Position numbers and translations under genes: made by a program. Of a stretch of DNA of 64,000 bases, positions 28,928 through 35,610 are shown one piece after another (position 1 is the stretch's first letter; every line of letters begins with the position of its first letter). The notes under the pieces were generated by a model. It was given only the letters and a program-made list of their open reading frames with translations, made no database searches and was not told where the DNA came from. The stretch lies in the NCBI RefSeq assembly GCF_002812805.1, contig NZ_NMUM01000022.1, forward strand, positions 1 to 64,000, in the 5' to 3' direction. This DNA comes from Microbacterium lacus (GTDB lineage Bacteria; Actinomycetota; Actinomycetes; Actinomycetales; Microbacteriaceae).

Positions 28928-31900
28928 GTGTGGCGAGCAGACGGCAACGCCGTGGACCTGGGCGAAGACGAGTCCCCCTCGTTCGGCGCGCCCGATAACA
29001 GCGGCGTCGCACCCGATGGCTTGAGTGTCGCCGAGCCCGGCGTGCAGGTCGCGCACGTCGCGGATGTGCTCCGATCGCGGTTGCGCGCCGAGGCATCCGA
29101 GCTCGGTGGACGCTCTCCGTTGCTGCAGTTCGTCGACGTCGCAGACGCCGGAATCGACATCACCAACGCGCACCCCGGCAGCTTGCCGCAGTTCATCACG
29201 GGACAGTCGACGTTGCTGTCCGGGCTCTTCCGCGACGAGGTCGCCCTGCGCACCGCCCGGCTTGCGGCCGAGGCGATCACGGCGAAGAACGTCGAGCTGC
29301 GGACCGTCCGCTCGATCGAAGCCGTCCACCTCGCTGTCGGTCTCGCCGGCTGGCGGATCGGCGGTGTTTCGTACAGTGCACCCGTGCTGCTCCGGCCCCT
29401 GGCGATCCGTCGCCACGGCACCGACTTCGAACTGAAGCTGCACGGCGGATTCCACATCAACCCCGAGCTCGACTCGGTCGCGCGTGAGCACTTCGGTATC
29501 GCCCTCGACGGTCCCGCGCTCGCCGCGCTCGCCCACGAGGGTGGCGTGTTCAAGCCGCAACGGGTCATCGACCGGCTCCGGTCGGTCACGTCCCACATCG
29601 ACACGTTCACGGTGCATCCGCGTCTGATCGTCTCGACGTTCGCCGATGTCGCGCGCGGCATGGCCCGCGACTCCGCGCGAGCAGGCGGACTCGTGCTGAA
29701 CGCCCTTGCGGGCCACGCAGCAGATCGGCAGACGCTTGCCGCACAACCGGGCGAGGTGCAGAGTGTCGGGCCCGACGATCGCCCGCCGGCCGCCGACACG
29801 CTGCTGCTCGATGCCGACTCCGAGCAGGAGCGCGTGCTCGCCCAGATCACCGCGGGACGCTCGATCGCCGTCGCGACGCTGCCCGGAACGGGCGGAACAC
29901 AGACCGTCATCAACGCGATCGGTGCCCTCGTGCACGAGCATCGCCGGGTGCTGGTCGTTAGCGCGCGTCGCTCGACGATCGAGGGCGTGCGGCATCGCCT
30001 CGGTCAGGTCGGTCTACCCGGTCTCGCGTGTTCCCCGACCAACACCGCCCGTGACCTCGTGCGCGCGATCGCCCGCAATGAAAAGGCCAAGGCGCCCCAG
30101 CTCGGCGACGTCGACGACGCACTCGTGCGCTTGCGCGCGTTGCTGACGTCGTACCGCAAGGGCCTGACAACGCCCGTCCCGGGGCTCGGCGTCAGCCCGC
30201 TGCAGACGCTCCATGCTCTCGCCGCGCTGCCGGCCGCCGACGGAATCGCCCCCGTCGACACGCGGTTCGACTTCGCGACGCTGACGAAGCTCGCGAACGA
30301 CCGCACGGAAGCGGCGCGGATGCTCGAGCTCGCCGCAACCCTCGGCGAATTCCGCTTCGGCCCCGGCGATTCACCCTGGTACGGCGTCAACTTTGCGAGC
30401 ACGGATGCCGCGCAGTCGGCGCATGCCCTCGCTCAGAGGCTGCACACGACCGAGGTTCCGCGGTTGCTCGAGCGCGGCTTCGAGCTCATCGCGCAGACGC
30501 GCATGCGTCCCTTCGCCTCGATCGACGAGCTCGGCGAATACCTGCGCCTCTTGATCGACATCCGCGACTCGCTCGATCGCTTCAGCCCCACCGTCTTCGA
30601 ACGCCCGCTGGCCGACCTCATCCGTGCGCTCGGCTCGCGTCGGGACTCCGCGGGCATGAAGGCGGGGGAGCGGCGCCGCCTGCGTCGCCTGGCGCGTGAG
30701 TACGTGCGCCCCGGCGTCCACGTGGCCGATATGCACGAGGCGCTCGTGCGCATCCAGCGTCAGCGCACGCAGTGGCAGCAGTTCGTCGACATCGGGGTCA
30801 CCCCCGAGGTTCCCCTCGGTCTCGCCGATGTGCACGTCGCCTGGCAGCGGGTCACGGCCGAGCTGGCAGAACTCGACGCCCCGCTCGGGCGCGACCGCGA
30901 CAAGCGCCTCGCCTCGCTCTCGGTCAACACGCTGGTGCGTACACTCGCCGGCCTGGCCGCAGAATCCGATGTCCTCGACAACCTGATCGAGCGGACGGCC
31001 CTTCGCGCCGAACTCGCGCGTCTGGGACTCGGCGGGCTGCTCGCCGAACTCTCGGTGCGGCACGTCCCGGCCGATCGTGTCGCGGCCGAGCTCGAGTACG
31101 CGTGGTGGCAGTCGGCGCTCGAGCACATGCTGCGCTCCGACAAGTCGCTGCTCGGCGCCAACACGAGCGTCGTCGATCGTCTGGAACGCGACTTCCGACT
31201 CGTCGACGAGGCGCACGCCGCGGCATCCGGATCCATTTTGTCGTGGCAGCTCGCCCGCGAATGGAAGATCGGCATCGTCGATGAACCGGGTGAGGCCGAG
31301 AACCTCAAGGCGCTGCTGACCCGCGGAACCGCGACACCCGCAACGCTCTCGCTCGGCGCTCCGACCCTCGGTCGCGCGCTCGCACCGGTCTGGCTGGCGT
31401 CGCCCTACGAGGTGCCGAAGATCCCGGACTCGGTCATGTTCGACACCGTGATCATCGCGGATGCCGGGGCCATCTGCCTGGCCGAGGCCGCACCGGCGAT
31501 CCGCCGTGCCCGACAGGTCGTCGTGCTCGGTGACCCGGTGACGCAGCGTCCGTCACCGTTCACTCTGGCGGCCGGTTCGGCGCCGCAACCCGAAGCCGAC
31601 GTCACGTTCGACGACGTCTCGGTGTTCGAGAAGCTGGCCGACCTGCTGCCCGTCTACACGCTGACCCGCAGCTACCGCGCCGGTGGTGAAGACCTGGCCG
31701 AGCTCGTCAACGACGCCTTCTACGGCGGCGAGATCGTGTCGTGGCCGTGGGCCGGATCGTACCTCGGCCGCGGCAGCCTGACCGTCGACTACGTCGAGGG
31801 CGGGTTCGGCGCGCCCGACCCGATCAGCGGCGCCGTCGAGAGCCCCGACACCGAGGTGACACGTGTCGTGACGCTCGTGCTCGAGCACGCGCTCAACCGG

Positions 31901-32668
31901 CCGGACGAGTCGCTCATGGTCGTGACCGCCAGCGCGCGGCACGCGGAGCGCGTGCGTGCGGCCGTCAACGCAGCCTTCGCGAGCCGATCGGATGTCTCGG
32001 AGTTCGCCTTGCGCGACACCGCCGAGCCGTTCGCGGTGCTCACCCTCGAGCAGTCGGTCGCCGAGAGCCGCGACCGCGTGATCTTCTCGCTCGGCTACGG
32101 GCTGACCAAGCACGGCCGCGTGCTGAGCGACTTCGGCGACCTGTCGACCCCCGACGGGGAACGTCTGCTGACGGTCGGCATGACGCGAGCGCGACGCTCG
32201 ATGGTGATCGTGTCATCCATCCGTCCCTCCGCCTTCGACGACGGACGCCTGGAATACGGCGCCGCGACACTCATGACGATCCTCGGGGGCATGGCAGCGC
32301 GCCAGCGCGACGCCCGCCTCGAAGACCTGGCCGATCCGCTCACGCGCCGCCTCGCATCCGAGCTGCGCCGCCTGGGCGTCTCGGTCGATGTCCACTACCG
32401 TGGCCTACTCCCGCTCGTCGCGCAGCACGCCGGCAAGGCCGTCGTCGTCGAGAGCGACCCCGAGACTCACGACGAGTCGCTCCGCGAATCGCTGCGGTTG
32501 CGTCCGCAGCTGCTGCGCCGCCTCGGCTGGCACTACGTCCGCGTGCACTCGTTCGATCTGTATACGGATGCTCCGGCCGTCGCCGCGCGCATTGCATCGA
32601 TCCTGGGGGTCGAGCCCGACGCACCCGCCGTCGAGGCCTCGACCCAGCCGATCGATGGCCTCGGCTGA
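28928..32668 (+). CDS. Degenerate SF1 helicase-like protein with REase-like C-terminus
   Basis: The protein has 1246 residues. Residues 288-345 match the entry of DUF4011/AAA_11-type SF1 helicases, but the Walker A reads LPGTGGTQT (318-326) with Gly323 where Lys is required. The Walker B reads VIIADAGAI (Asp845, Ala846), losing the catalytic Glu. Later motifs survive: RSYRAGGEDLAELVNDAFY, a motif V-like TLEQSVAESRDRVIFSLGYG and LLTVGMTRARRSMVIV (motif VI). Residues about 1139-1230 resemble a restriction-endonuclease-like module (REase_MTES_1575 type) ending RRLGWHYVRVHSFDLYTD. The frame is intact. A DNA-binding or regulatory role without ATP hydrolysis is inferred. Confidence 0.75.
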   Translation: MWRADGNAVDLGEDESPSFGAPDNSGVAPDGLSVAEPGVQVAHVADVLRSRLRAEASELGGRSPLLQFVDVADAGIDITNAHPGSLPQFITGQSTLLSGLFRDEVALRTARLAAEAITAKNVELRTVRSIEAVHLAVGLAGWRIGGVSYSAPVLLRPLAIRRHGTDFELKLHGGFHINPELDSVAREHFGIALDGPALAALAHEGGVFKPQRVIDRLRSVTSHIDTFTVHPRLIVSTFADVARGMARDSARAGGLVLNALAGHAADRQTLAAQPGEVQSVGPDDRPPAADTLLLDADSEQERVLAQITAGRSIAVATLPGTGGTQTVINAIGALVHEHRRVLVVSARRSTIEGVRHRLGQVGLPGLACSPTNTARDLVRAIARNEKAKAPQLGDVDDALVRLRALLTSYRKGLTTPVPGLGVSPLQTLHALAALPAADGIAPVDTRFDFATLTKLANDRTEAARMLELAATLGEFRFGPGDSPWYGVNFASTDAAQSAHALAQRLHTTEVPRLLERGFELIAQTRMRPFASIDELGEYLRLLIDIRDSLDRFSPTVFERPLADLIRALGSRRDSAGMKAGERRRLRRLAREYVRPGVHVADMHEALVRIQRQRTQWQQFVDIGVTPEVPLGLADVHVAWQRVTAELAELDAPLGRDRDKRLASLSVNTLVRTLAGLAAESDVLDNLIERTALRAELARLGLGGLLAELSVRHVPADRVAAELEYAWWQSALEHMLRSDKSLLGANTSVVDRLERDFRLVDEAHAAASGSILSWQLAREWKIGIVDEPGEAENLKALLTRGTATPATLSLGAPTLGRALAPVWLASPYEVPKIPDSVMFDTVIIADAGAICLAEAAPAIRRARQVVVLGDPVTQRPSPFTLAAGSAPQPEADVTFDDVSVFEKLADLLPVYTLTRSYRAGGEDLAELVNDAFYGGEIVSWPWAGSYLGRGSLTVDYVEGGFGAPDPISGAVESPDTEVTRVVTLVLEHALNRPDESLMVVTASARHAERVRAAVNAAFASRSDVSEFALRDTAEPFAVLTLEQSVAESRDRVIFSLGYGLTKHGRVLSDFGDLSTPDGERLLTVGMTRARRSMVIVSSIRPSAFDDGRLEYGAATLMTILGGMAARQRDARLEDLADPLTRRLASELRRLGVSVDVHYRGLLPLVAQHAGKAVVVESDPETHDESLRESLRLRPQLLRRLGWHYVRVHSFDLYTDAPAVAARIASILGVEPDAPAVEASTQPIDGLG

Positions 32669-32903
32669 CGGCTCCGGCGAGCCGGGGACGTCCCCCGATG
32701 TCGAGTCGGGTGACGTGCCGGGCTCGCGACAGCGCGTCGTTCGCGTGCCGGGTGCACGCCGGGCGAAGCTGACAGCCGCGCCCGGGGCAACACCCGAGCC
32801 GGCGCCGCGGGACGAGGCATCCGATCCGACTCCCGAGCCCGACGCGAGCACCGCGGGACCGAACGACGACCGCCTGCGCCAGGACGTACCCCCGCACTAC
32901 TGA
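32655..32903 (+). CDS. Small Pro/Asp-rich protein
   Basis: An 82-residue frame that overlaps the end of the helicase-like gene by 14 bases and runs up to a strong hairpin. It is rich in Pro, Ala, Asp and Arg (RRAKLTAAPGATPEPAPRDE) and ends DDRLRQDVPPHY. It is probably disordered. There is no clear Shine-Dalgarno site, so it would depend on translational coupling. Its placement before the terminator supports it being real. Confidence 0.55.
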   Translation: MASADGSGEPGTSPDVESGDVPGSRQRVVRVPGARRAKLTAAPGATPEPAPRDEASDPTPEPDASTAGPNDDRLRQDVPPHY

Positions 32904-32935
32904 CCGAGCGGGCAAGGAAGGTCGCCCGCTCGGTC
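32902..32935 (+). terminator. Hairpin after the helicase-like operon
   Basis: Arms 32902-32913 (GACCGAGCGGGC) and 32924-32935 are perfect complements with a 10-base loop. The hairpin starts inside the stop codon of the 82-residue gene. Confidence 0.8.
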
Positions 32936-32980
32936 GGGCATCACACCAGCGAGCTCTGTGAGCATCCCGTCCACGTCCGA

Positions 32981-33113
32981 TGTCCCACTTCTACCCGGTA
33001 TAGAGGTGTCAAGCCCTAGAAAGTGGGACACACCACCATCCCATGTCCCCTTTTCTCTCGGTATATCGACGATTTACCGAGAGAAAGTGGGACATGTAGC
33101 GCTAGAAGTGGGA
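32981..33113. repeat. Cluster of five TGTCCCACTT palindromic repeats
   Basis: Related copies of TGTCCCACTTTCT lie at 32981-33001 (+), 33018-33030 (-), 33042-33065 (+), 33075-33096 (-) and 33104-33113 (-). Copies three and four form a hairpin with arms of about 22 bases that include CTCTCGGTA, with a 9-10 base loop. The cluster fills the gap between the helicase-like operon and mscL. It may be a REP/MITE-like element or a cluster of binding sites. Confidence 0.75.
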
Positions 33114-33145
33114 AATGCGGGCACGGCAGCGGCATGCAGCGCGGG

Positions 33146-33577
33146 TCAGGCGCGCGGCGAGGGGCCGGACTGCTGCTTCTCGAGCAGATCGCGGATCTGC
33201 ACCAGGATCTCTTGCTCGGTCGGGAGCTTCGGCTCGTCTTCGGCCGCGCTGAGGCCCGCCCGAGCGGCGGCACGCTGCTTGAGGTGGTTCATCGGATAGA
33301 CGAACACGAAGTAGACAACGACCGCGACGGCGAAGAAGCTGATGACGGCGCTGATCAGGTCGCCGAGCGGGAACGTGACGGGCTGGCCGTAGATGCCGTT
33401 GATCGTCGGACCGAACTGGCCCATCGAATCAGCCTCAAAGAACAGCGCGACGATCGGATTGATGATGCTCGACACGATCGAGTTGACGATCGCGGTGAAG
33501 GCACCTCCGATGACGACGGCGACCGCGAGGTCGATGACATTGCCGCGGAGGATGAACTCCTTGAAACCCTTGATCAT
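33146..33577 (-). CDS. mscL: Large-conductance mechanosensitive channel
   Basis: A 143-residue MscL, the pressure-relief channel opened by osmotic downshock. The N-terminus MIKGFKEFILRGNVIDLAVAVVIG is characteristic. Two membrane helices span about residues 15-46 and 71-96, and a charged C-terminal helix (EQEILVQIRDLLEKQ) closes the protein. GGGAGGAG precedes the ATG. It lies downstream of fmdB on the same strand with a short gap. Confidence 0.95.
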   Translation of the reverse strand: MIKGFKEFILRGNVIDLAVAVVIGGAFTAIVNSIVSSIINPIVALFFEADSMGQFGPTINGIYGQPVTFPLGDLISAVISFFAVAVVVYFVFVYPMNHLKQRAAARAGLSAAEDEPKLPTEQEILVQIRDLLEKQQSGPSPRA

Positions 33578-33611
33578 GCGTTGCTCCTCCCTGCGTGCCC
33601 GGGGGCCCGCT

Positions 33612-33998
33612 TCACGAACCCGTCGAGGCGGGCGAGGACTTCGTCCCCGATGTCGATTCTGACGAAGACGACGACGATCCGCCACCCGAGCCCGAGCCCG
33701 AGCCCGAATCGGACTTCGTGGCAGAGCCGGACGAGCTCGACGATCCGGAGTCCGACTTCGCGGAAGAACCGGACGCATCGGACGATCCCGAGGACTTGCC
33801 CGCCGCGGCCTTCGCGTCGCCGGACCGCGAGTCCGTGCGGTAGAAGCCGCTCCCGTTGAATGTGACGCCGATCGAGCCGTACTGCTTACGCAATACGCCG
33901 CCGCACTCGGGGCACTCGGTCAGCGTCGGGTCGGTGAAGGCCTGGACGGCGTCGAAACGGTGGCCGCAGGACTTGCAGGCGTAGGCGTAGGTGGGCAT
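33612..33998 (-). CDS. FmdB-family zinc ribbon protein with Ser-rich tail
   Basis: The 128-residue protein begins with an FmdB zinc ribbon: C8-x2-C11 and C29-x2-C32 in MPTYAYACKSCGH and LTECPECGG, then the VTFNGSGFYRTD end of the family domain at about residue 56. The remaining 70 residues are low-complexity Ser, Gly, Ala and Lys, probably disordered. Zinc and nucleic-acid or protein binding is expected, with no proven function. It lies between the 5-FCL and mscL genes, a conserved order in this group. Confidence 0.85.
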   Translation of the reverse strand: MPTYAYACKSCGHRFDAVQAFTDPTLTECPECGGVLRKQYGSIGVTFNGSGFYRTDSRSGDAKAAAGKSSGSSDASGSSAKSDSGSSSSSGSATKSDSGSGSGSGGGSSSSSSESTSGTKSSPASTGS

Positions 33999-34021
33999 CG
34001 TGCTCCTGGTTCAGGCGTGGT

Positions 34022-34627
34022 TCAGCGCGCGGAGGGCGCAAAGGTGACGGTTCGAGACGGAGTGACCACGCCCGAGACGGGCTGATCGTGTACCTCGTGA
34101 GGCACCTCGTCGACGAGTTCCGAGTCGAAGATGACGGCGTAGACGGGCGGGCAGCGCTCCATCGAGCCGATGGTCTTGTCGAAGTATCCGCGTCCCCAGC
34201 CCATGCGCATGCCAGTCGCGTCGACGGCGGCGGCGGGGATGATCATCAGGTCGACGTCGTTGACGGCGATCGGTCCGAGAAGTTCGCCCACCGGTTCGGG
34301 AAGACCGAACATGCCCTCGGCGATGTCGCCTCCCGGGACGGCGACCGACCAATCGAGCAGTCCATCGGAGCGGCTGATCGGAAGAAGGACACGGATGCCG
34401 CGGGCCACCGCACGATCGACGAACTCGTGCGTGCCCGGCTCGGTCGACATGGAGAGAAAACACGAGATCGAGCGGGCGCCGTGCTGCTCCACCAGCTGGT
34501 CGAGACGGTCGGCGAGCGCGTGCTCCGCGTCGGCGCGTTGCGCGTCGGAGAGCAGCTGACGACGCTCGCGCAGGTCCGCGCGAAGCGCCCGCTTGACGTG
34601 ATCGACGTCTGTGGACACGGGCACCAT
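34022..34627 (-). CDS. 5-formyltetrahydrofolate cyclo-ligase
   Basis: A 201-residue MTHFS enzyme that converts 5-formyl-THF to 5,10-methenyl-THF using ATP. Family marks are KRALRADLRERRQLL at the start, RSISCFLSMSTEPGTHEFVD, LDLMIIPAAAVDATGMRMGWGRGYFDK (the ATP/folate loop GxGxGYFD) and a late VPHEVHDQPVSGVVTP segment. It heads a leftward group with fmdB and mscL and is divergent from galU. Confidence 0.92.
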   Translation of the reverse strand: MVPVSTDVDHVKRALRADLRERRQLLSDAQRADAEHALADRLDQLVEQHGARSISCFLSMSTEPGTHEFVDRAVARGIRVLLPISRSDGLLDWSVAVPGGDIAEGMFGLPEPVGELLGPIAVNDVDLMIIPAAAVDATGMRMGWGRGYFDKTIGSMERCPPVYAVIFDSELVDEVPHEVHDQPVSGVVTPSRTVTFAPSAR

Positions 34628-34713
34628 CTTAGGCGCGGTGGCGTTGCGGGAAGGTCGGGCCGGATGTCAACCCCGGTAATACGCGCGGTTCTCCGTCACG
34701 GCTTCCCGTTACG

Positions 34714-35610
34714 ATGGCCGACATGCCTCCTATGAAGTTCAAAGCCGTCATTCCTGCTGCCGGTCTCGGCACGCGCTTCCTTCCCGCCACGAAGGCGATG
34801 CCGAAGGAGATGCTGCCCGTCGTCGACAAGCCCGCGATCCAGTACGTGGTGGAGGAGGCAGCCCAGGCGGGCATCGACGACATCCTCGTCATCATCGGCC
34901 GTAACAAGAACGCCGTCGCGAACCACTTCGACTCGGTTCCCGAGCTCGAGGTCAAGCTGAAGGACAAGGGCGACCACGACCGCTTGCGTCGCGTGCTCGA
35001 GTCGAGCGATCTCGCCGACATCCACTTCGTCCGACAGGGTGAGCCGAAGGGGCTTGGACACGCAGTGCTGCGTGCCAAGAACCACGTCGGTGACCACTCA
35101 TTCGCCGTCCTGCTCGGTGACGACTTGATCGACGAGCGCGATGTGCTGCTGACGACGATGATGGCCGAGCACGAGCGCACCGGCGCGGCGATCGTCGCAC
35201 TCATGGAGGTCGACCCCGACCAGATCCACCTCTACGGCGCCGCGGACGTCGAGTCCACCGACAACGCGGATGTCGTCAAGGTCAAGGGTCTCGTCGAGAA
35301 GCCCAATCGCGAGGACGCCCCGTCGAACCTCGCCATCATCGGACGCTACGTACTGAGCCCCGCGATCTTCGAGGTGCTCGAGCACACAGAGCCCGGCAAG
35401 GGCGGCGAAATCCAGCTGACGGATGCGCTGCAGGAGGTCGCCGCAGACCCCAACGGCCCCGGCGTGTACGGCGTCGTGTTCCGCGGTCGTCGCTACGACA
35501 CCGGCGATAGGGTGGACTACATCAAGGCCATCGTGCAGCTCGCCGCCGACCGCGAGGATCTCGGTCCCGAGTTGCGTCCCTGGTTCAAGGAGTTCGCGGC
35601 GGGTCTGTAA
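34714..35610 (+). CDS. galU: UTP-glucose-1-phosphate uridylyltransferase
   Basis: A 298-residue GalU that makes UDP-glucose for cell-envelope glycans. The nucleotide-binding signature AAGLGTRFLPATKAMPKEML is near residue 12. PAIQYVVEEA, FAVLLGDDLID and VKGLVEKPNREDAPSNLAIIGRYVL follow in the usual order. Length is normal. It is divergent from the folate gene and followed at about 45 bases by a RimJ-like acetyltransferase. Confidence 0.95.
   Translation: MADMPPMKFKAVIPAAGLGTRFLPATKAMPKEMLPVVDKPAIQYVVEEAAQAGIDDILVIIGRNKNAVANHFDSVPELEVKLKDKGDHDRLRRVLESSDLADIHFVRQGEPKGLGHAVLRAKNHVGDHSFAVLLGDDLIDERDVLLTTMMAEHERTGAAIVALMEVDPDQIHLYGAADVESTDNADVVKVKGLVEKPNREDAPSNLAIIGRYVLSPAIFEVLEHTEPGKGGEIQLTDALQEVAADPNGPGVYGVVFRGRRYDTGDRVDYIKAIVQLAADREDLGPELRPWFKEFAAGL

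Follow-up and report, generated by a model that had tools for sequence, protein, structure and literature searches.

A conserved helicase-derived protein, probably a non-hydrolysing scaffold with a tail-peptide partner, in the Microbacteriaceae

Upf1, Ighmbp2 and Dna2, helicases of superfamily 1 (SF1; subgroup SF1B), hydrolyse ATP, and RecC and AddB are inactive helicase subunits of RecBCD and AddAB whose active partners lie next door. Here we describe a gene of Microbacterium lacus whose product has a predicted core fold like that of the first three proteins (Z = 20-21) but has lost the Walker A Lys, the Walker B Asp-Glu (DE) pair and the motif III Gln, and continues into a Vsr/Hjc-like restriction endonuclease (REase) domain. 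The gene occupies 28928..32668 on the + strand of the window, by which we mean the whole 64,000-nucleotide stretch analysed (positions 1 to 64,000 of contig NZ_NMUM01000022.1, assembly GCF_002812805.1). It starts with GTG and, as the initial annotation of this DNA had reported, is open throughout its 1246 codons. We consider it probable, at roughly 0.7, that it encodes a domesticated non-hydrolysing scaffold that works with a tail peptide and whose ancestor was an active helicase-nuclease of the ProA-Hhe type. Like RecC and AddB, it would be a dead helicase retained as a scaffold; an active-partner gene as in RecBCD/AddAB was not found among the seven neighbours scanned.

Profiles with the best matches in NCBIfam and PADLOC were those of ProA, Hhe and PDC-S37, in agreement with the initial annotation, which had tied related proteins to defence. 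The giant ProA or MTES_1575-type protein (NF058533; E = 8.4e-80) has the same domain order of DUF4011, SF1 helicase and MTES_1575 REase, but the window protein has only 1246 residues, scores 268.8 bits against a cut-off of 1500 and lacks the catalytic residues. Hhe, a DUF4011 anti-phage protein (NF042953; E = 6.4e-40), is similar in the helicase core, but here too the window protein stays below the cut-off (136.5 against 2000 bits) and is without catalytic residues. Neither HEPN nor DUF3320 gave a Pfam match in the window protein at E up to 1. Both are present in the ProA copy L299 (loci, genomes and families carry our own L, G and f handles), a Lys-intact protein of 2167 amino acids that exceeds the ProA cut-off and combines HEPN_Swt1, DUF4011, REase and DUF3320. 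The MTES_1575 architecture, including HEPN and winged helix-turn-helix domains, is described in the available portion of PMC3710099, and L299 is close to it.

Pseudohelicases have been described before, and so has a core DUF4011 gene. According to the available portion of PMC10250203, such a gene adjoins the defence hotspot cDHS1 in every isolate of Pseudomonas aeruginosa and has a small hypothetical gene nearby. By that description, it is like the present gene in being large, species-wide and close to a small conserved gene, and unlike it in belonging to another phylum. For Deinococcus radiodurans PriA, the accessible text of PMC4504706 reports no ATPase and no unwinding, retained DNA binding and evidence for contact with DnaB. 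PriA is likewise a vertically kept helicase with Walker A and B lost, its Lys being replaced by Arg as in our family f38; however, it is another helicase, and its inactivity and DNA binding were measured. Among titles and abstract starts in the open-access literature, we found no paper on the window family, its spread, its catalytic-to-non-catalytic series, the tail protein or the fusions described below.

Domains and catalytic residues

In the window protein, Pfam recovered AAA_12 (residues 976-1097, E = 2e-4), a trace of AAA_11 (residues 298-378, E = 0.07) and REase_MTES_1575 (PF18741; residues 1161-1224, E = 6.6e-5), the last with 23.4 bits, short of the gathering score of 38.2, and no DUF4011. 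Because DUF4011 matches were found in the N-terminal part of the orthologues L070 and L105 and of the second copy L301, we read the architecture as DUF4011, SF1 helicase and REase, with an N-terminal region (residues 47-290; 29066..29797, + strand) that is probably DUF4011-derived. L105 (71.7) and L301 (98.7) also exceeded the gathering score of PF18741.

An AlphaFold (AF2) model of residues 47-1243 (mean predicted local distance difference test score, pLDDT, 71.7; predicted template modelling score, pTM, 0.46) gave a Upf1-like SF1 helicase core; the initial annotation had anticipated an SF1 helicase with an endonuclease-like tail. The core matched Dna2 (Z = 21.2), Ighmbp2 (Z = 20.8) and Upf1 (Z = 20.3) over about 260-340 residues, which supports a Upf1-like SF1 fold with moderate model confidence; global Foldseek scores of the full model were low (TM about 0.2 or less to query length among the rows shown). 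The REase part (residues 1126-1243; 32303..32656, + strand), modelled alone with a pLDDT of 82.4, matched the endonuclease-like structure 3hrl (Z = 9.3), Hjc (8.3), a homing endonuclease domain (7.9) and Vsr (6.8), so that the C-terminal domain is predicted to have a PD-(D/E)xK fold of the Vsr-Hjc kind. Fold matches were taken from VIA lists, in which a Z below 8 is by itself weak evidence of fold, and Foldseek returned nothing for the REase model at E < 0.001.

To describe the motif residues, we used a family set of 143 unique sequences. Besides the window protein, it contains 35 sequences taken from genomes of the genus, 36 taken from genomes elsewhere in the family, and 71 named loci; the named loci are almost all Microbacterium (two carry only Actinomycetota or Actinomycetes as name). 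The Walker A equivalent PGTGGTQT (residues 319-326; 29882..29905, + strand) has Gly323 for Lys, as first noted. Residue 323 was Gly in 138 sequences, all with PGTGGTQT, Ser in three, Val in one and Tyr in one, and Lys in none. An assembly or frameshift artefact was considered and rejected, the identical Gly being present in 138 of the 143.

The Walker B equivalent FDTVIIADAGA (residues 838-848; 31439..31471, + strand) was aligned without gaps to FDVVIFDEASQ, which corrects the register of the initial annotation: the residue it had taken for the lost Glu, Ala846, is the normal Ala of DEA, and the lost pair is Asp to Ala844 and Glu to Asp845. Asp was absent from position 844 in all 143 sequences and present at position 845 in 142. 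Later helicase motifs had been described as kept. This holds for Arg917 in motif IV (31661..31678, + strand; Arg in 143/143, within the best-conserved 15-residue stretch of the protein) and Arg1087 in motif VI (32180..32197, + strand; 141/143), but not for motif III (residues 866-876; 31523..31555, + strand), where Thr872 replaces a Gln found in none of the family, nor for motif V (32048..32074, + strand), where the alignment has VAESRD for QGDERD and Val1044-Ala1045 for QG. The REase tail proved as degenerate as had been suspected, with Pro1162 for the first Asp. Position 1162 held no Asp in the family (Pro 108, Ala 25, Gly 5, Ser 2, Thr 2, Gln 1), while Asp1177 was retained in 143/143 and Glu1175 in 133/143. 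Because the motif III Gln, the motif V QG and the first REase Asp are also gone, the loss is larger than the initial annotation held. Alignment with Lys-containing relatives needed no gaps at any of these sites (PGTGGTQT/PGTGKSQT, GDPVTQRP/GDERQLPP, VAESRD/QGDERD, LLPLV/AVDLA).

What distinguishes an active SF1 helicase, namely the Walker A Lys, the Walker B Asp-Glu and the motif III Gln, is missing from the family (0/143 for Lys, Walker B Asp and Gln), and the window family shows one mark of a pseudohelicase, clear descent from a helicase with loss of catalytic motifs. Because these three catalytic residues were lost together, general knowledge of SF1 enzymes makes ATP hydrolysis very unlikely. 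Gln300, an adenine-side residue in SF1 enzymes, was retained in 143/143, as were the phosphate-side residues Arg917 and Arg1087 at the frequencies given. The best-conserved 15-residue stretches take in motifs IV, VI, V, Ia, I and III, and the motif II segment was the least conserved among the motif segments tabulated. Since the conserved stretches coincide with helicase motifs, the site looks repurposed rather than decaying.

Distribution, selection and phylogeny

The gene was matched in 58 of 59 genus genomes (52/52 good ones), 119 of 120 family genomes (109/109 good ones) and 193 of 198 order genomes (186/188 good ones), the order count including accessory relatives. It is present in reduced genomes of 0.8-0.9 Mb (G073, G227 and G351), and most orthologues fetched from the order are full length. 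The ratio of non-synonymous to synonymous substitution rates (dN/dS), calculated by the Nei-Gojobori method for the 30 lowest-dS pairs among 31 sequences, was 0.015-0.10 in 25 pairs, indicating purifying selection. Between the window protein and its nearest named relative (L212, Microbacterium sp. isolate UBA9898, 93% in the best segment), dN was 0.039 and dS was 0.81. The absence of Lys from all 143 sequences of a gene under purifying selection is beyond chance. These results bear out the earlier view of a conserved, apparently non-hydrolysing SF1 helicase whose catalytic residues are lost family-wide.

The surrounding gene order is conserved as well. At 33146..35610, Pfam and synteny identified mscL (- strand), a Zn_ribbon_8/FmdB-like gene (- strand), the gene for 5-formyltetrahydrofolate cyclo-ligase (5-FCL; - strand) and a galU-like nucleotidyltransferase gene (+ strand); FmdB and galU are names that we presume to fit. 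When the window proteins were searched by tblastn, at least one of MscL, FmdB-like, 5-FCL and GalU was in the fetched stretch at 34 of 40 loci from other families, and the same neighbourhood genes accompanied all 79 named loci and, among 20 loci drawn from the family and from f6/f7, all but one (19 of 20). They accompanied none of 11 accessory or second-copy loci, a weak control in which most flanks were about 1-3 kb (about 5 kb in L301). No sign of a defence island was seen among the seven neighbours scanned (symporter, Tag, Ogt, MscL, Zn ribbon protein, 5-FCL and nucleotidyltransferase). Ogt and Tag were also considered as partners and rejected, neither being present at any of the 40 other-family loci. 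The gene is a core chromosomal gene of the family.

Eight orthologues, from families f5 and f18, keep the Lys and the Walker B DE. L085, L087, L105, L123, L086 and L103 also have the motif III Gln, QGDERD and the REase residues (I/V)DLA ... E.D; the Lys-containing L111 and L116 deviate in motif III or V. The former six, in which the tail is adjoining or fused, offer a natural catalytic counterpart for comparison. The Lys is also intact in ten long relatives and in L301, and long ProA-like copies occur in three of 59 genus genomes (G007, G049 and G058), one of which scored as ProA. L301 (4752-8654, + strand), from genome G151 of the family, is a second, stand-alone copy of 1301 amino acids with GPPGTGKSQT and an intact REase. 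It falls outside the core clade, has no tail and was probably acquired horizontally.

We built a tree of 100 rows by a quick method (LG+G4) with the motif columns removed, 10 redundant rows having been dropped beforehand. Composition bias was flagged, as were the long branches of L161 and of L304 with L312. L292 and L293 were scored manually as Lys, since their GPPGTGKSQT had escaped the alignment. Seventy-two Lys-less rows formed one clade with no Lys row within it (Shimodaira-Hasegawa-like approximate likelihood ratio test, SH-aLRT, 100); f38 and f25, which have Arg in place of the Lys, lay outside it, as did three rows of f18 (Val, Ala, Ala). The Lys/no-Lys label needed at least three changes on the tree, two of them forced by starred branches. 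The Lys state thus appears to have changed at least two times and probably three, a change count that alone also permits Lys gain. The Lys position of Lys-less rows varied among G, Q, A, S, L, V, T, D, P, R and Y. The first REase Asp was present in 17 of 19 Lys rows compared with 16 of 81 Lys-less rows (Fisher p = 2e-8, kinship ignored); loss of the REase Asp accompanies loss of the Lys.

The small downstream gene and its tail

The initial annotation had named an overlapping 82-residue gene as a possible partner of the helicase. This gene (32655..32903, + strand) overlaps the helicase stop by 14 bases and encodes a low-complexity protein with a conserved C-terminal tail, NDDRLRQDVPPHY (32862..32900, + strand; A1 alignment), usually matched once per genome in the class. 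Its relatives are mostly 50-125 amino acids long and of low complexity. Many lineages show an overlap with the helicase of 4, 8 or 14 bases, whereas others have a gap between the two genes. Their conserved end reads (N)D(D/E)RL..(D/E/Q).PPH(W/Y), and the class-wide consensus of the tail is E/D-D-T-D-x-G-W-G ... D-E-R-L-L-x-x-x-P-P-H-W. For four members scanned, neither Pfam nor NCBIfam offered a credible family. A strong hairpin (32900..32937, + strand; 14-pair stem, -30.7 kcal/mol, z = -5.5) begins where the small gene stops. It has no T run and was not called by the consensus terminator scan; it possibly marks the end of a two-gene transcript.

A tail profile was applied to the 213 of 231 unique loci that had at least 700 downstream bases. 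In 182 of the 213, the tail was found in a frame of its own no more than 2 kb downstream of the helicase, confirming that the small gene is kept in related genomes, and in none of the 213 on the opposite strand or in the 2 kb upstream. A regular-expression search gave 118 of 161 loci, or 108 of 140 unique ones, with two controls of 0/140 each, and found the diverged PPHFGKI/PPHFGKL tails of L128, L131, L133 and L140 that the profile overlooks. In family f38, a tail match lay a few kb off on the helicase contig in the cases compared (G553, G576, G503, G538 and G465). In the 0.9-Mb genome G073, the dead helicase is kept (L160) with no tail adjoining or fused.

In 18 of the 231 unique loci, spread over six families, the tail forms the C-terminus of the helicase itself, in the same reading frame. 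The fused rows comprise seven of f6, two Lys-intact ones of f18 (L085 and L087), three of f14, two of f16, three of f10 and L161, a deep member of the family. These natural fusions are L071, L072, L074-L078, L085, L087, L107, L112, L118, L134, L161, L305-L307 and L315. None of nine long accessory relatives has such a fusion. With the 14 fusions that fall within the 213, the tail was present, separate or fused, at 196 of 213 loci. On 70 rows of the tree, after the 30 rows of 100 lacking a known tail state were left out, no fewer than nine transitions between the fused and the separate state were required, eight of them forced by starred branches. Recurrent fusion of otherwise separate genes is a classical sign of joint function. 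The small gene is real, and its repeated fusion to the helicase makes it likely that the two are functionally linked, which favours the proposed partnership. Since fusions occur both with and without the Lys, the link would either predate the loss of the ATPase or not depend on it.

In the class, the tail was matched in 166 of 246 genomes (152/221 good ones), usually once each, at E up to 0.01, a count that includes some false matches, and any helicase match was found in 80 of 246 (77/221 good ones). Twenty tail loci had no core helicase in the fetched stretch (up to 14 kb). Seventeen of these tails were convincing, three (L205, L207 and L211) looked like chance matches, and 12 of the 20 loci lay in the helicase-type neighbourhood. 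Examples of microproteins with a PPHW or PPHH tail are L192:6841-7212 (- strand), L197:6855-7160 (+ strand) and L206:6696-6875 (+ strand).

Further downstream in the window, a palindromic element occupies 32980-33116, with its best copy at 33042-33096 carrying GAGAAAGTGGGACA. Its arms are 27 bases long and 89% complementary (z = -8.5 folded as RNA). GAGAAAGTGGGACA had 11 matches in the genome with up to one mismatch, compared with 0 for the reversed control, and some matches form face-to-face pairs. The element is a small dispersed repeat family.

The scaffold and its rival explanations

In the scaffold reading, an active helicase-nuclease of the ProA-Hhe kind would have been taken over as a core chromosomal gene and would have lost ATP hydrolysis and, in the window family, DNA cleavage too. 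The helicase cleft (Gln300, GTG.TQT, Arg917, Arg1087 and motifs Ia, IV, V and VI) would be locked on nucleic acid and perhaps on nucleotide, and other proteins would act on the nucleic acid that the scaffold holds fixed. D. radiodurans PriA shows that an arrangement of this kind can exist. The tail peptide would be part of the same working unit as the helicase and is a candidate docking peptide, whose target may be a third, shared protein or the helicase itself. Since the tail also occurs by itself in other orders, its binding target is probably something common to the whole class, to which the tail may carry the helicase as cargo. We infer, then, a protein without activity of its own that would bind nucleic acid through its kept residues, make physical contact with the tail and serve a cellular process as scaffold. 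Our guess that this process is housekeeping DNA or RNA metabolism comes from the universality of the gene only. A wider version holds that an anti-phage-type helicase-nuclease became a core machine part of an actinobacterial order, losing its ATPase two or three times and often its nuclease too, and that it forms one unit with a class-wide tail peptide docking to a class-wide protein, in an undescribed housekeeping complex. We put this version forward tentatively, at slightly under even odds.

Several observations weigh against the scaffold reading. The sequences and rows counted share ancestry and do not give independent counts, and the order-wide 186 of 188 lumps orthologues with accessory relatives. 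The other five of the 30 lowest-dS pairs had dN/dS of 0.32-0.38, although these are more diverged and their dS is possibly underestimated. The AF2 model of the window protein is middling and its domain 2A is poorly predicted. The Asp that 142 of 143 sequences have where the catalytic Glu would be could mean a rebuilt site. Some Lys-less families retain the REase Asp, f6 (7 of 9 rows) being the main exception, and since f6 and others hold it, the nuclease may not be dead everywhere. By profile, 17 of 213 helicase loci have no tail near or fused (L082, L088, L090, L091, L093, L097, L100, L101, L122, L128, L131, L132, L133, L140, L160, L301 and L302); two of these, L301 and L302, are accessory copies, and L128, L131, L133 and L140 have the PPHF tail by regular expression. 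Finally, the tail protein also exists without the helicase in other orders and is therefore not exclusive to it.

The initial annotation had linked related active proteins to defence or DNA processing, and the protein could still be an anti-phage protein that now acts as a non-hydrolysing sensor of foreign DNA. Its best profile matches (ProA at E = 8.4e-80, Hhe and PDC-S37) lend this some support, and relatives with HEPN and REase domains are proposed as defence proteins in the available portion of PMC3710099. However, the scores reach only 268.8 of the 1500 bits set for ProA and 136.5 of the 2000 set for Hhe, and the long ProA-like copies are separate genes, found in 3 of 59 genus genomes with one scored as ProA. 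The gene itself is in all good genus and family genomes searched (109/109 in the family), usually once and mostly in one neighbourhood, which is not the patchy pattern of a defence gene. Its universality, its synteny and its persistence in reduced genomes make a defence role less likely than the scaffold, and we regard it as unlikely. That the gene is a decaying pseudogene, open by chance, would account for the missing catalytic residues, but it is contradicted by purifying selection, by full length in most orthologues and by retention in reduced genomes, and has a vanishingly small chance of being right.

An ATPase might remain active through substitutes, with Asp845 as base and Arg917, Arg1087 and the TQT loop for the phosphate. 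The altered P-loop, Gln300, Asp845, Arg917 and Arg1087 are indeed nearly invariant in the family; on the other hand, the Lys, the Walker B Asp and the motif III Gln are missing from 143 of 143 sequences, and because the Lys position takes many letters in other families, one shared rebuilt active site does not fit. We judge such an activity highly improbable. As for the small gene, it could adjoin the helicase through ancestral gene order only, without joint function, as the excess of tail over helicase in good class genomes (152 versus 77 of 221) and the 12 of 20 tail-only loci in the shared neighbourhood would allow. Gene order does not explain the in-frame fusions at 18 of 231 loci in six families, in Lys-intact and Lys-less proteins alike but in 0/9 accessory relatives, nor the switches between fused and separate (at least nine, eight forced by starred branches), nor the overlap of start and stop in many lineages. 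Mere adjacency is thus very unlikely.

Almost every member of the order that was sampled keeps the non-catalytic form, and sister lineages have a catalytic-looking one. Together they would provide a natural before-and-after series from a defence-type enzyme to a non-catalytic part. The tail protein offers a second well-defined object of study, and its fusions suggest that helicase and tail belong together. These results point to an actinobacterial function that would need no ATP hydrolysis and that is retained even in very reduced genomes.

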